Position numbers and translations under genes: made by a program. Below the pieces are notes generated by a model. It worked only from the letters and a program-made list of their open reading frames with translations. It did no database searches and was not told the origin of the DNA. Below, one piece after another: positions 10,699 to 63,807 of a DNA stretch of 64,000 nt (positions within the stretch are counted from its first letter, which is position 1; the number at the start of each line of letters is the position of its first letter). Origin of the DNA: Deltaproteobacteria bacterium (GTDB lineage Bacteria; Desulfobacterota; Desulfobulbia; Desulfobulbales; JAJRZW01); contig JAJRZW010000016.1 in the NCBI GenBank assembly GCA_024275015.1, positions 70,899 to 134,898 on the forward strand, written 5' to 3'.

Positions 10699-10793
10699 CA
10701 GACCATTGAAAAAGCCGCCCATGTTTTTTTTCAACTCCGGCAAAATCAGCGGCGCGTCCATACGCCGCTTACAGTCCGTTGAAAAACGGACTG
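10699..10793 (-). repeat. Family A repeat, short form, starting directly after a stop codon
   Basis: CAGACCATTGAAAAAGCCGCCC...CAGTCCGTTGAAAAACGGACTG. Confidence 0.8.
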
Positions 10794-14964: not shown

Positions 14965-15177
14965 TTCCAGGAACAGCCCTGTTGCACGCATTAACATCCC
15001 GTTAAAAAACGGATTGTTATCGGCACCCGGCTTCCGGGCCAAACCCGGAACAACTTTGTAAGCTTTGCTAAATCAAGTCGTATATTCAACAAATTAAGGC
15101 AATCAGGAAAGTTGAACAAAAACTCACAAATATTACAGTCAAAAACGGGCTAACCTGTGGCACCTGGTGAACCATAG

Positions 15178-15270
15178 CAGGCCGTTGAAAAAGCCGTCCA
15201 TGGTTTTTCAATTCCGGCAAAATCGGCGGGGTGTCCATGCGCCGCGCACAGCCCGTTTTTCAACGAGCTG
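15178..15270 (-). repeat. Family A repeat, short form
   Basis: CAGGCCGTTGAAAAAGCCGTCCATGGTTTTTCAATTCCGGCAAAATCGGCGG...CAGCCCGTTTTTCAACGAGCTG. Confidence 0.82.
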
Positions 15271-20645: not shown

Positions 20646-20860
20646 TGGATCCGTGACGGCTTAGTGGCAACCGAGTATGTATTCATCTGAATTCATGCGT
20701 TTTTTGCCGGATTTTCACTCCGGCGGGAATTTCACCCCGCCGCCCTTCGGGCGTCCGGGAACGACTCATCCGCGGTGTCGGCAACCCGTTGATATACCGA
20801 AGTATAATCAACGTGCTTGCCTCCTTGCGCCTGCGCCGTTCCCGAACGTCACGGATCCAA
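20646..20860. repeat. MITE-like element with 13-bp perfect terminal inverted repeats (family D)
   Basis: TGGATCCGTGACG at 20646-20658 and exact reverse complement CGTCACGGATCCA at 20848-20860. Confidence 0.7.
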
Positions 20861-21908: not shown

Positions 21909-22057
21909 CAGTCCGTTGAAAAACGGACTGTACGCGGCTGATGTCCGCGCCGCCGATTTTGCCGGGTTGAAAACCCCGGTGAAATCGAGAGGTTGGCCGG
22001 AACTTGTTTTGGCCAACCGGGAGTTTAAAAAGCCAGGACGGCTTTTTCAACAGTCTG
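21909..22057 (+). repeat. Family A repeat, full length
   Basis: CAGTCCGTTGAAAAACGGACTG ... GGCTTTTTCAACAGTCTG. Confidence 0.9.
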
Positions 22058-22223: not shown

Positions 22224-22327
22224 TTGTTGGCCTCGCAATAAATTGCGGGCCAACGGCAATTGCGCTTATAGCTTATTGAAATTACGTGGACCCGCTTCCG
22301 TTTGAGATATTTGTTACGAGTCCATCA
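22224..22327. repeat. Family B-related repeat (variant core)
   Basis: Near-copy of 19943-20044. Confidence 0.7.
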
Positions 22328-22335
22328 TCAATATT

Positions 22336-22454
22336 GATGGTCTCGTAATTCCCCGCGGAGGCGTCTTCGGCGATTTTCGGGAAAAGCGCCGAAGACGGGA
22401 TGGGTTACCAGTCCGTTGAAAAACGGACTGGTAAATGATGAATCCGTAACAAGT
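22336..22454. repeat. Family B fragment with a solo family A hairpin (22409-22430)
   Basis: GATGGTCTCGTAATTCCCCGCGGAGGCGTCTTCGGCGATTTTC ... GACGGGATGGGTTACCAGTCCGTTGAAAAACGGACTGGTAA. Confidence 0.65.
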
Positions 22455-22652: not shown

Positions 22653-22670
22653 CCCGGGATTACCGCATAA

Positions 22671-22817
22671 AGGCCGTTGAAAAAACAGACTTGTGCGGCG
22701 CATGTACGCGTCGATGATTTCACCGGATTGAAAAACCCGGTGAAATCGAGAGGCTGGCCGAAACTTTCTTGGCCAACCAGAGTTGAAAAAGCCATGAACG
22801 GCTTTTTCAACCGTCTG
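22671..22817 (+). repeat. Family A repeat, full length
   Basis: GGCCGTTGAAAAA...TTTCACCGGATTGAAAAACCCGGTGAAA...GGCTTTTTCAACCGTCTG. Confidence 0.85.
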
Positions 22818-24469: not shown

Positions 24470-24502
24470 TACACACTTGCTCCTGTCAGGATATAAAAAC
24501 TG

Positions 24503-24838
24503 ATGCTCTCATAACAAATCGCCATGAAGGCGTCTTCGGCAACTTTCGGAAAAGCACCTAAGACGGGATGCGTTAACAGTCCGTTAAAAAACGGACTGTT
24601 AACGGTGCATGGACGCGCCGCCGATTTTATTGGGTTTGAAAAAAACAATAAAATCGAGAGATTGGCCAGAACTTGTTTTAGCCAACCGGGGGTTGAAAAA
24701 AAGCAGGACGGCTTTTTCAACAGCCTGTTAAGAAATCCCGCATGTTTCAGGGCATAATCCAAGTTCGGGATTTCAGCAGCCCGGCGCCCGGAAATCGCCG
24801 TTTTCTCCCCGGAGCTGGAACTTGTTACGACGCCATCA
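24503..24838. repeat. Family B repeat containing a nested full-length family A repeat
   Basis: TGATGCTCTCATAACAA...GACGGGATGCG | TTAACAG...CTGTTAA | GAAATCCCGCATG...GGAACTTGTTACGACGCCATCA. Confidence 0.8.
24573..24731 (+). repeat. Family A repeat, full length, TTAACAG...CTGTTAA ends
   Basis: Ends and internal hairpins match the other copies. Confidence 0.88.
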
Positions 24839-26724: not shown

Positions 26725-26746
26725 CAGTCCGTTTTTCAACGGACTG
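26725..26746. repeat. Family A solo hairpin
   Basis: CAGTCCGTTTTTCAACGGACTG. Confidence 0.75.
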
Positions 26747-27999: not shown

Positions 28000-28039
28000 T
28001 TAACAGAGTGTTGAAAAAGCCGCCCTGGCTTTTTCAACC
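28000..28039 (-). repeat. Family A terminal fragment
   Basis: TTAACAGAGTGTTGAAAAAGCCGCCCTGGCTTTTTCAACC. Confidence 0.7.
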
Positions 28040-28170
28040 ACCGCACATGATAAACACATAAAGCAGGTTGCCTATCTCCCCCTGATCCTGTTATAGAAAA
28101 TTAGATTACTAAAATATCCTTATAATAAACAGGAGCGCCACGGATGAAAAGCCAGAGCCGGTATGGCTAA

Positions 28171-42189: not shown

Positions 42190-42289
42190 TTAACAGACTG
42201 TTGAAAAAGCCGTCCTGGCTTTTTCAACCCGGCAAAATCGGCGGCGCGGCCATGCACCGCGACCAGCCCATTTTTCACCGAGCTGTTAA
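42190..42289 (-). repeat. Family A repeat, short form
   Basis: TTAACAGACTGTTGAAAAAGCCGTCCTGGCTTTTTCAACC...GAGCTGTTAA. Confidence 0.88.
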
Positions 42290-43600: not shown

Positions 43601-46534
43601 CTAACGGTCAACCCCGCTCAGAAAATCACGGGCGTAGGGATCGCCCTTCCGGGCGGCCTGAATGTAATAATTCCTGGCCCGGCCGGGGTTTGCGCTTCCC
43701 CCAAGGCCGACTTCTTCAAAATAACCGAGGAAAAAAAGGGCGTGGGCGCTGCCTTGTTTCGCCGCCTGGCCAAGCCAGCGACGCGCGGAATTCCGGTTCA
43801 TGGCAATTCCCCTGCCGGTTACATAGGCGACCCCGAGCCTTAAAGCACTGTTATTATCGCCGGCGGCCGCGGCCCTGGTGTACCATGTCACTGCCGTAGC
43901 CGGATCTTTCCTGACCCCGAGGCCCTCTTCACTGGCAAGGCCAAGGTAATACTGGGCCGCGACATGCCCCTTGGCCGCCGCTTTTTCATAAAGCGCCAGG
44001 GCCTTTTTATTTGAGGCCGCGACCCCGTTGCCGGTAGCATAGGCCCGGGCCAGGCGATACTGGGCCTCAACCTCACCCTGGGCCGCTGCCAGCCTGAACC
44101 ACTTGACCGCCTCGGCATGATTCTCCTTGACGTTGCGACCAAGATCATACATCAGCCCCAGACGATACTGGGCGCCCGGATGGCCCTTGCTTGCCGCCTG
44201 ATGAAACCATTTCATCGCCCGGGCCGCGCTTTTGGGAACGCCCCGGCCCTCATAAAAGGCCTCGCCGAGAGAATAGGCGGCAACAACCACGCCCTTGGCA
44301 AATGCCTTGTTAAACAAGGCCACCGCGGCGGCCGGGGCCTTCGCCACCCCGTTTCCATCCATGAGCATCAGGGCGTATTTATACTGGGCCATGGCACTGC
44401 CGCCATCAGCGGCCCGCTTGAACCATTTGGCGGCCCGGCGGGGTTTTTTGGGCAGACCGTTGCCGGTAAGATACATATTGGCGACATTATACTGCGCCTT
44501 TACGTTGCCCCGCTGGGCCGCGTTCAGAAACCATCCGGCCGCCTTTCTCCGATTTACGCCCACCCCCCGGCCCTCGCTGTAGATAACCGCGAGTTCATAC
44601 ATAACCTGGGAGACCCCTCTGACCCCGGCGGCCTCAAGCCATTTAACCGCGGTGGCCATATTCTTTTTCACCCCAATCCCGTCGCGATAGCTTATCCCGA
44701 GACGATACATGGCCATGGGATGCCCCTGGGCGGCGGCGCGGCCATACCATTCCGCCGCGTCAACCGGCGACGCCTTCACCCCCATGCCCTTCTCATATCC
44801 CTCGGCAAGGCGATACTGTGATTCCGGATCTCCCTGTTCCGCCGCCTTACGATACCAGCGCATGGCGTCATGCATACTCTTTCTTATGCCTTTCCCCTGG
44901 GAGTAAAGGCGGGCAAGTTGGAACTGGGCCCCGACCTTACCCTGAGCCGCCGCCTTTTTCAGCCACCTCACCGCCCGGGTAAAGTTCTTTTCCACCCCCT
45001 TGCCGCCTTTCAGGTAAAGGATGGCAAGACTGTACTGGGCCTTGAGGTTTCCCTCCTCGGCGGCCTTCTTTGCCCAGCGCAGGGAATCGGCGTCAAGTTC
45101 CCCCTGGCTTGCGGCGACGAATTTTTTCTCAAGCTTCGCCTTGGCCCGGGCATAGCCCTGGGCCGCGGCCTTGCCCCACCACTCGGCGGCGGCGGCGTCA
45201 TCCTGTTTTACCCCGTCGCCAAAGGCATAACTGAGGCCCAGGAGATACTGGGCCTCAGGGTCCCCTTTCCTGGCCGCGGTCGTAAACCACTTTATCGCCT
45301 GTTTACTGTCTTTCCCGACTCCGCGACCTTCGCTGTACATACTCCCGAGACGGACCATGGCCCCGATATTACCTCCCGCGGCCGCCAGGGTGTACAGGCG
45401 TATGGCCTCGGAAGGATTTTCCTTAACCCGGTCATTGCCGTTCTCAAGCCTCGCCGCCATGGCGGCAAGATACTCCGGCCCCGCCACCGCCGGGGTCTGC
45501 CAGACGGTTAGGGAGCCGTCCATGCCACCGGCGGCAATCATCTTGTTATCAGGGCTCAGGGCAATCCGATTCAACTCGACCTTGGGAAGGTCATGGTAAT
45601 CAATAAGCTTGAAGGTATCGGCCCGCCATAACAGGGCGACTCCCTTCTGACCGGCAACGGCAACATACTTTCCGTCGGCGCTGTAGGCCATATCCATGAC
45701 ATCACCCCACCACCATTTCCGCGAGGACATCTCCTGTTTACCGCTGGCGGCGTCCCACAGGATCAAACTGCCGTCACGACCACCGGAAAGAATTTTTTTG
45801 CCGTCCGGGGACCAGGCCACCGCGTTAACCCAATCGGAATGTCCCTTAAGGGAGAGTTCCGCCTTTTCCCGGTCAAGATCAAACACCTGAGCCAGGTTAC
45901 TCCAGCTCTCTCCGGCAACGACCCTGTCCCCATCAGGAGAAAAGGCCAGGTCAAGAATATCGTTCTTCCTGACATCAACCTCTGCGATCTGCCGACCGCC
46001 GCGGACACGCCAGAGACGGACGCTATCATCTTCACTGCCGGAAACTATAGTCTTACCGTCAGGGGAAAAGGCCAGGGCCGTAATCCGGCGTTTATGGCCG
46101 CGCATGGTCTCTTCGACCTTGCCCTTGTCGACGTTCCACAGGTCAATAACAAATTCCCGTCCCCTGGCGCGGACGCCACAGGCGAGAAAGCCCCCCCGCG
46201 ATGACCAGGCAAGGGAATTAACGCTTTCATATTCTCCAAGGCTCTTGACCTTGGCGCCGTCGCTACTCTTCCAGATATTAATATGACCGTCTTCACCGGC
46301 GGTGGCGATAAGTGATGAATCAGGAGAAAAGACGAGCCCGACCACCACCCCTTTCTGCGCCCCGATCCGGAACAGGCGGGAAACATCCGTGGAATCAGCG
46401 GCTGCCGCCGGAATGCTGAAAGTAAAGAAAAAAACCGTAGCCACCAGGGCCATAGTTACCGCAGGATACGCTCGGAATACCGAAAAAAAACGCCGCATTC
46501 GCATCTTTGCATTTCTCCCGATTTCATTTATCAT
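43601..46534 (-). CDS. WD40-repeat / Sel1-repeat fusion protein
   Basis: N-terminal WD40 repeats (SPDGKTIVSGSEDDSVRLWRV) then ~16 Sel1 repeats (AVKWFRLAAAQGEVEAQYRLARAYATGNGV). Confidence 0.93.
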   Translation of the reverse strand: MINEIGRNAKMRMRRFFSVFRAYPAVTMALVATVFFFTFSIPAAAADSTDVSRLFRIGAQKGVVVGLVFSPDSSLIATAGEDGHINIWKSSDGAKVKSLGEYESVNSLAWSSRGGFLACGVRARGREFVIDLWNVDKGKVEETMRGHKRRITALAFSPDGKTIVSGSEDDSVRLWRVRGGRQIAEVDVRKNDILDLAFSPDGDRVVAGESWSNLAQVFDLDREKAELSLKGHSDWVNAVAWSPDGKKILSGGRDGSLILWDAASGKQEMSSRKWWWGDVMDMAYSADGKYVAVAGQKGVALLWRADTFKLIDYHDLPKVELNRIALSPDNKMIAAGGMDGSLTVWQTPAVAGPEYLAAMAARLENGNDRVKENPSEAIRLYTLAAAGGNIGAMVRLGSMYSEGRGVGKDSKQAIKWFTTAARKGDPEAQYLLGLSYAFGDGVKQDDAAAAEWWGKAAAQGYARAKAKLEKKFVAASQGELDADSLRWAKKAAEEGNLKAQYSLAILYLKGGKGVEKNFTRAVRWLKKAAAQGKVGAQFQLARLYSQGKGIRKSMHDAMRWYRKAAEQGDPESQYRLAEGYEKGMGVKASPVDAAEWYGRAAAQGHPMAMYRLGISYRDGIGVKKNMATAVKWLEAAGVRGVSQVMYELAVIYSEGRGVGVNRRKAAGWFLNAAQRGNVKAQYNVANMYLTGNGLPKKPRRAAKWFKRAADGGSAMAQYKYALMLMDGNGVAKAPAAAVALFNKAFAKGVVVAAYSLGEAFYEGRGVPKSAARAMKWFHQAASKGHPGAQYRLGLMYDLGRNVKENHAEAVKWFRLAAAQGEVEAQYRLARAYATGNGVAASNKKALALYEKAAAKGHVAAQYYLGLASEEGLGVRKDPATAVTWYTRAAAAGDNNSALRLGVAYVTGRGIAMNRNSARRWLGQAAKQGSAHALFFLGYFEEVGLGGSANPGRARNYYIQAARKGDPYARDFLSGVDR

Positions 46535-46537
46535 AAA

Positions 46538-46630
46538 CTGTAAAAAAAACCATCCTGGCTTTTAAAACTGCCGCATGGATAAAACAAGTCTCATCCATGC
46601 GCCGCGACCAGTCCGTTTTTCAACGGACTG
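46538..46630 (-). repeat. Family A repeat, deletion derivative retaining hairpin 3
   Basis: GGATAAAACAAGTCTCATCC joined to GCGCCGCGACCAGTCCGTTTTTCAACGGACTG. Confidence 0.7.
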
Positions 46631-49268: not shown

Positions 49269-49410
49269 ACGTAAGCGCCCCATGAACACCACCCTGCACG
49301 CGCTTTAACCATCAGTGGTTAAAGCGCGCACATGGCGGCGTCCCTGAGACACTTAACAGAGTGCGATTATTTTTGCATTTAGGTGTGGTTACCGGCAAAC
49401 ACAGAACAGA

Positions 49411-53658: not shown

Positions 53659-53800
53659 AGCAGGATGACGTATTCTATTAAAGATAATAAGATCCAGAGT
53701 AACCCCAGCCCCCCCCGGTGCCGGACTCATCATTAAAAAAAACATGGCCGCAGGTCAAAAAATAAAGATGTTCCCGGTATCGCAATAGATTCCGGTCTAC

Positions 53801-53882
53801 CTCTCGATTTCACTGGGTTTTTCAATCCGGTGAAATCGGCGGCGCGTCCGTGCGCGCGACCAGCCCGTTTTTCAACGGGCTG
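53801..53882 (-). repeat. Family A repeat, truncated
   Basis: CTCGATTTCACTGGGTTTTTCAATCCGGTGAAATCGGCGG...CAGCCCGTTTTTCAACGGGCTG. Confidence 0.8.
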
Positions 53883-55462: not shown

Positions 55463-55609
55463 CAGCCCGTTAAAAAACGGACTGGTCGCGGCTGATGTCC
55501 GCGCCGCCGATTTTGCCGGGTTGAAAAAACCGGTGAAATCGAGAGTTGGACGAAACTTGTTTTATCCAACCGGCGGTTGAAAAGCCAGGACGGCTTTTTC
55601 AACACACTG
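55463..55609 (+). repeat. Family A repeat, full length
   Basis: CAGCCCGTTAAAAAACGGACTG...GGTTGAAAAGCCAGGACGGCTTTTTCAACACACTG. Confidence 0.9.
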
Positions 55610-55719: not shown

Positions 55720-55900
55720 GATGGCCTCGCAACAAGTCCCCGCGGAGGCGTCTTCGGCGATTTCCGGAAAAAACGCCGGACGACGGGGTGGTCAGGAAAT
55801 CCCGCATGCTTGAAGGCATAGCCCGAGTTCGGGATTCCGGCAGCCCGGCACCCGGAAATCGCCGCTGTCTCCCCGGAGCGGGACTTGTTGCGACTTCATC
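55720..55900. repeat. Family B repeat, uninterrupted copy
   Basis: GATGGCCTCGCAACAAGTCCCCGC ... GCGGGACTTGTTGCGACTTCATC (~21/23 inverted match). Confidence 0.85.
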
Positions 55901-58313: not shown

Positions 58314-58602
58314 GATGAAGTCGTAACAAGTCCCAGATCCGGGGAGAAAACGACGATTTCCGGACACCGGGGGGGGCGAACTGCTGAAATCCCGAACTCG
58401 GGCCATGCCCTCAAACATGCGGGATTTCTTAACAGACTGCTGAAAAAGCCGTCCCGGCTTTTTCAACCCAATAAAATCGGCGATGCGTCCATGCACCACG
58501 ACCAGTCCGTTTTTCAACGGACTGGGAACCCATCCCGCCGCCAGGCGTTTTTTTCGAAAATCGCCGAAGACGCCTCTGCGGGTAATTGTTACGGGACCAT
58601 CA
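58314..58602. repeat. Family B repeat containing a nested short-form family A repeat
   Basis: GATGAAGTCGTAACAAGTCCC...GGGATTTC | TTAACAG...GGACTGG | ...GGCGATTTTCGAAAAAAACGCC... (minus) ...TTGTTACGGGACCATCA. Confidence 0.8.
58439..58524 (-). repeat. Family A repeat, short form
   Basis: TTAACAGACTGCTGAAAAAGCCGTCCCGGCTTTTTCAACCCAATAAAATCGGCG...CAGTCCGTTTTTCAACGGACTG. Confidence 0.88.
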
Positions 58603-63657: not shown

Positions 63658-63807
63658 CAGTCCGTCGAAAAACAGACTGGTCGCGGTGCATGGACGCACC
63701 GCCGATTTTATTGGGTTTTAAAAATCCAATAAAATCGAGAAGTTGGCCGGAACTTGTTTTGGCCAACCGGGTGTTGAAAAAGCCAGGACGGCTTTTTCAA
63801 CACTCTG
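63658..63807 (+). repeat. Family A repeat, full length
   Basis: CAGTCCGTCGAAAAACAGACTG...TTTTATTGGGTTTTAAAAATCCAATAAAA...TTTTTCAACACTCTG. Confidence 0.9.

Follow-up and report, generated by a model that had tools for sequence, protein, structure and literature searches.

A probable MITE family with a five-hairpin fold conserved through compensatory changes in at least five families of its phylum

Introduction

Non-autonomous DNA transposons of the MITE type are usually viewed as short-lived, lineage-limited leftovers of insertion sequences (ISs). REP sequences and REPINs are tied to Y1 (RAYT) transposases, and Y1 transposition (IS200/IS605-like) leaves no target duplications. The bacterial MITEs described so far include Correia elements, Nezha, Chunjie of Geobacter uraniireducens, and QMITE2 of Coxiella (PMC10969869).

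Here we analyzed a repeat found in a 64,000-nucleotide stretch (hereafter the window; C69:70899-134898) of a 2.45-Mb genome assembled into 76 contigs. The repeat has the hallmarks of a MITE, being under ~500 bp and without coding capacity, and having terminal inverted repeats (TIRs), target duplications, and empty sites. A MITE as such is nothing unusual here; what stands out is how long its fold has lasted.

Results

Copies in the window

A sequence-only reading had listed copies of the repeat in the window, and every one of them was present at, or a few bases from, its coordinate. The covariance model recovered all six copies claimed as full length (21909, 22671, 24577, 46850, 55463, and 63658; 115-159 bits) and all six claimed as short or deleted (10699, 15178, 42190, 46538, 53801, and 58439; 53-82 bits). 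Among the supposed solo hairpins, those at 22409 and 26725 were the first hairpin of the element (H1) and that at 14992 was a degenerate H1, while the end fragment placed at 28000 was the end of the fifth hairpin (H5), starting at 28004. The nhmmer E-values of window copies reached 1e-50, and the TAR+TIR pattern TARCAGNCYGTTGAAAAA had 195 exact matches in the genome, compared with 0 for the reversed control. The copies are as follows.

21909-22057, + strand: reference full-length element; 158.8 bits; flanks are GCAG/ATAA, with a duplication that either never arose or has since disappeared
22670-22817, + strand: full-length copy with degenerate left end; 114.8 bits
24577-24727, + strand: full-length copy inside another dispersed repeat; duplication TTAA/TTAA; related empty sites (L096, L106, L094) with a single TTAA
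46850-46998, + strand: full-length copy; duplication TTAG/TTAG; a related empty site (L099:2234-2326) matches more loosely
55463-55609, + strand: full-length copy; duplication TTAT/TTAT
63658-63807, + strand: full-length copy; flanks ATAA/ATGA, 3/4 match
42194-42285, - strand: 92-bp deletion form (GTTGAAAA of the H3 loop x H5); TTAA/TTAA duplication intact
58433-58524, - strand: 92-bp deletion form (covariance model)
15178-15270, - strand: 93-bp deletion form; flanks CTAC/CTAT
10699-10793, - strand: ~95-bp deletion form (covariance model)
46534-46630, - strand: ~97-bp copy with an internal deletion of a different kind (covariance model)
53751-53882, - strand: copy with H1-H3 kept and right end eroded (HMM and covariance model)
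28004-28044, - strand: H5 end fragment (HMM and covariance model)
22409-22430, + strand: solo H1 hairpin (covariance model)
26725-26746, - strand: solo H1 hairpin
14992-15013, + strand: degenerate H1 hairpin; 12.6 bits for 14995-15037
55746-55855, + strand: member of the repeat family that hosts copy 24577, with no element in it; a related empty site (joined-flank comparison)

Ends, target duplications, and empty sites

Full copies were 147-152 bp long and contained no convincing ORF, in agreement with the sequence-only reading. CAGNCYGTTGAAAAA forms the terminal inverted repeat at both ends, and the aligned ends read CAG...CTG. The boundary proposed earlier, TTAACAG...CTGTTA(A), was correct for the CAG and CTG ends, but the outer TTAA...TTAA lies outside the element and is the commonest 4-bp target duplication; TTAG, TTAT, ATAG, ATAA, and ACAA also occur. 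In the window's own genome, 18 of 38 copies had exact 4-bp target duplications (permutation mean 4.3, maximum 12 in 20000).

Empty sites were sought by joining the flanks of single copies. Other dispersed repeats in this genome contained related empty sites with a single copy of the target. The clearest case in the window was copy 24577-24727, where members of the host repeat that lack the element read GGTTAA or GATTAA joined directly to GAAATCCC. The matching 4-bp target duplications and the precise related empty sites show that the copies moved.

Three dispersed repeats were noted at the landing sites. The intergenic repeat GGAGGCGTCTTCGGCGATTTTC... (window 24470-24576 and 24732-24830, 55746-55855, and ~22300-22400; L096, L106, and L094) hosts copy 24577 and adjoins copies 22409 and 58433. 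Another repeat of ~120 bp with many copies (window 20740-20856; L097, L096, L110, L104, and L025) took up the element in one copy at a TTAG target. The third, CCTGAAACCCTTACAG...TTAATTGATCGCTTG (window 49270-49347; L110, L099, L100, L107, and L113), also served as a landing site.

The element had been described as MITE/REP-type. A REP or REPIN mobilized by a RAYT, which is a Y1 tyrosine transposase, would likewise be palindromic, intergenic, and high-copy, with a hairpin at each end. We rejected this reading as highly improbable, since the element has target duplications and DDE-type ends and PF01797 had 0 matches in the window's genome, which is 93% complete. The MITE half of the description held, on the strength of the TIRs, 4-bp duplications, empty sites, and ISs with the same ends, whereas the REP half did not.

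Abundance and genomic placement

Abundance was determined in 464 kb of DNA, comprising the window plus twenty 20-kb stretches from elsewhere in the genome. The 91 elements in this sample, of which 55 were full length, made up 2.2% of its sequence; extrapolation from the sample gives an estimate of ~480 copies and fragments in the whole genome. The high density noted in the window is thus real but not specific to it (13 HMM-detected elements in 64 kb versus 78 in 400 kb elsewhere), and it has a precedent in the 711 ERIC copies of Photorhabdus luminescens (PMC10969869). Copies were found on many contigs and in many genomes. Several contigs of the assembly terminate within an element, as expected because repeats break assemblies. 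In these genomes, the covariance model annotates a large and so far unannotated share of the intergenic DNA and of MAG contig breaks.

Almost all copies were intergenic, although the earlier claim that all are did not hold strictly: 6 of the 91 sampled elements lay inside ORFs of a crude gene finder, several of which were weak calls. Both orientations occurred, with sense and antisense placements about equally frequent. The gene context (40 co-directional, 22 divergent, and 18 convergent) tracked intergenic length (chi-square p=0.73), and no gene-context or orientation bias was found among the sampled copies.

A five-hairpin fold

An alignment of 56 sequences from six genomes revealed five consecutive hairpins. 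The folding z-score was -6.9. The terminal inverted arms and several internal hairpins seen in the sequence-only reading were confirmed; what it had missed was the conservation of the five-hairpin fold and how widely the fold occurs in the phylum. In the reference element, the hairpins are as follows.

21909-21930, + strand: H1, hairpin at the left end (CAGTCCGTTGAAAAACGGACTG), whose 5' part forms the left TIR
21934-21953, + strand: H2 hairpin (covariation)
21954-21987, + strand: H3 hairpin, TTGAAAA in the loop (fold and covariation)
21991-22018, + strand: H4 hairpin, GGTTGGCC...GGCCAACC (fold and covariation)
22023-22051, + strand: H5 hairpin, GTTTAAAAAGCC...GGCTTTTTCAAC; forms the right TIR with 22052-22057

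The transposase-type ends sit within H1 and H5. Across families, the loop motif CCAYGGAYGG was common to H2 and H5 (e.g., L031, L084, and L088-type phylum members), and TTGAAAA was common to H1 and the H3 loop. These conserved loop motifs are possible sites of protein or loop-loop contact. The stems were mostly Watson-Crick, with only ~3% G-U cells. On the H1-to-H5 strand, G-U pairs outnumbered A-C pairs by 36 to 8 in a prediction that allowed G-U on that strand; for this reason, and because most pairs are Watson-Crick, RNA and single-stranded DNA are indistinguishable here.

Spread across the phylum

A covariance-model scan of relatives, as suggested by the sequence-only reading, detected the element in 21 of 396 genomes of the phylum (E at most 0.001). 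Weak matches (E=1e-4 to 1e-3; e.g., L271-L275) were excluded as members, being coding-like and without the five hairpins. The strong carriers were ~14 genomes, each with E below 1e-11, belonging to f1, f4, f29, f35, f72, and f100 and spanning at least five families; f1 and f4 are families of the window's order. Each strong carrier had several copies; as only seven candidates were scored per genome, the counts for genomes other than the window's are minimum values. Same-order relatives include Desulfurivibrio sp. AMeS2, recorded as an isolate; a relative of the same genus is labelled a Desulfobacterales MAG.

Distant members had the same layout, starting with CAG and ending with CTG, and exact 4-bp duplications were present in 6 of 18 copies from distant families (permutation expectation 1.8, p=0.004). 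Letter identity between most pairs of distant families was only ~53-72%. In the phylum alignment, 34 of 47 pairs had compensatory (both-side) changes and 96.8% of cells paired, and the covariation score was 0.579, compared with 0.190 +/- 0.010 for shuffled and at most 0.141 for slid controls; the alignment was fitted to the model, so these counts lean towards structure, but the slid controls and a separate MAFFT alignment agreed. These results show that compensatory changes have preserved the five-hairpin layout in no fewer than five of the phylum's families. Loops and linkers were also conserved across families.

Copies were more alike within a genome, and similarity dropped from genus to order to phylum, which suggests that each lineage amplified its own version and that inheritance was mostly vertical. 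In some families the ends changed in step on both sides (GTTGAAAAA to GCTGAAAAA). No DNA similar to the element was found in plasmids, where the H5 hairpin gave chance-level matches only. No Rfam family scored above its gathering score, so the repeat did not match this catalogue, and no description of it was found in the open literature, most subscription journals being outside that coverage.

Deletion forms and the level of selection

Each element carries three GTTGAAAA repeats, in H1, the H3 loop, and H5. Three deletion forms are predicted from them: ~92 bp for H3 x H5, 98 bp for H1 x H3, and ~41 bp for H1 x H5. Each was observed, and several copies retained intact target duplications, indicating that an element can survive without its full set of hairpins. 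The short copies fit recombination between these internal repeats. By eye, the 92-bp copies differed in their H1 and H2 variants, which suggests that they arose by repeated independent deletion.

Single-copy mutations were then compared between stems and loops; in these tests the copies are related by descent and not independent, so the p-values are optimistic, and many private changes are possibly alignment noise. The values were 0.0105 for stems and 0.0076 for loops in the window's own genome (p=0.22), and 0.0089 and 0.0117, respectively, in G010 (p=0.32). In G027, whose eight copies were the smallest carrier set, loops had more private changes than stems (12/400 versus 8/800, p=0.015), a hint that stems are under some constraint. 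Pair states were examined in H1-H4, H5 being left out because its alignment register was unreliable. Private states broke rather than kept pairs by 80 to 35, whereas states shared by at least three copies kept rather than broke them by 21 to 9 (Fisher p=1e-4). Double changes were rare among private states (8/115). Since private mutations hit stems like loops and mostly break pairs, the fold seems to be maintained in spreading lineages and not at each insertion site.

Two other explanations of the conserved fold bear on these data. The compensatory arms could be the product of templated quasi-palindrome correction, a mutational process, instead of selection on the fold, and the near-perfect Watson-Crick stems suit DNA palindromes equally well as RNA. 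Such correction should act on individual copies, however, where double changes were rare, and it does not explain the conserved loops and linkers; we consider it unlikely. Less probable still, the fold could be that of a structured RNA or a transcription terminator that serves the host, and is selected for doing so, wherever a copy has inserted. The strong folding and conserved loops, the excess of G-U over A-C, and the calling of H5 or H2 as terminator-like in two copies would be expected of such an RNA, but orientation and gene context were unbiased, stems were not spared by private mutations in either large sample, copies were often deleted, no Rfam family matched, and the G-U excess is partly built in by structure prediction.

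Candidate mobilizing transposase

A transposase with matching ends, which the sequence-only reading had proposed to look for, was found in ISs of same-order genomes but not in the window's genome. DUF772 was searched in 147 same-order genomes, followed by screening of the ends and a check on further copies. The ISs obtained (1.33-1.5 kb; L204-L208, L211, L212, L065, L066, and L090) had the ends CAGCCCGTTGAAAAA or CAGGCTGTTGAAAAA, duplications including ATAG/ATAG, ATAA/ATAA, CTAT/CTAT, CTAG/CTAG, and CTAA/CTAA, and transposases with DUF772 and DDE_Tnp_1. The nearest NCBIfam model was IS1182 (201.5 bits, below the cut-off of 270) and, for the other IS group, IS5_4 (273.8 bits, above the cut-off of 140). 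In G025, an IS-type end was located beside other MITE families with the same ends. We infer a partnership between the element and the DUF772 ISs because their ends and duplications agree.

A DUF772 transposase was detected neither in the window's genome nor in the majority of tested carriers, the single-contig genome G338 among them; in these carriers, the mobilizer would not be resident or would be another protein. A search for DDE_Tnp_1_6 (IS1182-type) and DDE_Tnp_1 in the four first carriers yielded no element with these ends. The sole DDE_Tnp_1 match in the window's genome, L049 (G000:C73:32949-34701), was a truncated, decayed IS4-like fragment at a contig end, and its transposase was interrupted by a 42-bp solo H5 palindrome. 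Contigs of G044 (L053-L056) broke off in CAGGCTGTTGAAAAACTC flanked by CTAG or TTAG, a pattern resembling the loss, during assembly, of a multi-copy IS that has these ends.

The element could instead be mobilized by a dedicated single-copy DDE transposase, host-encoded or domesticated, in a partnership resembling that of REPINs and RAYTs but with duplicating chemistry. The persistence of the fold throughout the phylum while most carriers have no DUF772 match speaks for this possibility, as do the ends that shift together, which is expected if they track a transposase. However, no such enzyme was detected with four transposase model families (PF01609, PF13751, and PF05598 in several carriers; PF01797 in the window's genome only), and the only TIR-bounded genes in 1.66 Mb screened were the known DUF772 ISs. 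We therefore regard a dedicated transposase as possible but doubtful.

Discussion

The element is probably a family of non-autonomous DNA transposons (MITEs) with five hairpins, mobilized in trans by a DUF772-type transposase, whose fold is kept among the copies that spread. Given the ends and duplications shared with same-order ISs, it would be, or would have been, moved by a DDE transposase of the IS1182/IS5 group carrying DUF772. After insertion, a copy would drift and be shortened by recombination among its three internal repeats. The fold may be needed or favored for transposition or toleration, and not for a host job at each site. A more far-reaching view, which we put forward tentatively and consider rather doubtful, is that the element has persisted through much of the phylum with the fold itself selected for propagation and with a putative dedicated trans-acting transposase. 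One elaborate fold kept across families of the phylum despite changed letters makes the needs of non-autonomous spread directly testable.

Like REPINs, the element is intergenic, hairpin-forming, miniature, and amplified within its genome (PMC3116915). REPINs rest on Y1 transposases, whereas the element has target duplications and its genome no PF01797 match. ISs of the IS1182/IS5 group (DUF772 and DDE_Tnp_1) have NTAN-type 4-bp duplications and ends like those of the element; they are 1.3-1.5 kb long with a reading frame of 365-482 aa, compared with ~150 bp for the element, and the five hairpins were not seen in them on visual inspection. Model R1 had no match in four of these ISs (L204, L206, L211, and L065), giving no sign that the interior derives from them.

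A second MITE family in G001 and G025 (CAGCCCGTTGAAAAACGTAGCGAGCGCAG..., interior GTTGAAAAACGTAGCGAGCGCAG...) has the same TIR and NTAN duplications, but its interior is unrelated to that of the element. It measures 47-245 bp (L063, L031:1349-1488, and L220-L249). Model R1 was specific, as this family, other same-end MITEs, and IS ends scored at most 12.6 bits.

Correia elements, Nezha, Chunjie, and QMITE2 resemble the element in being short and intergenic, without an ORF, and with TIRs and direct repeats, and in having many deleted copies and stable predicted folds (PMC10969869). In contrast to the element, none of the four is described there as keeping a single multi-hairpin layout through compensatory change in different families of a phylum, Chunjie being compared by its description.
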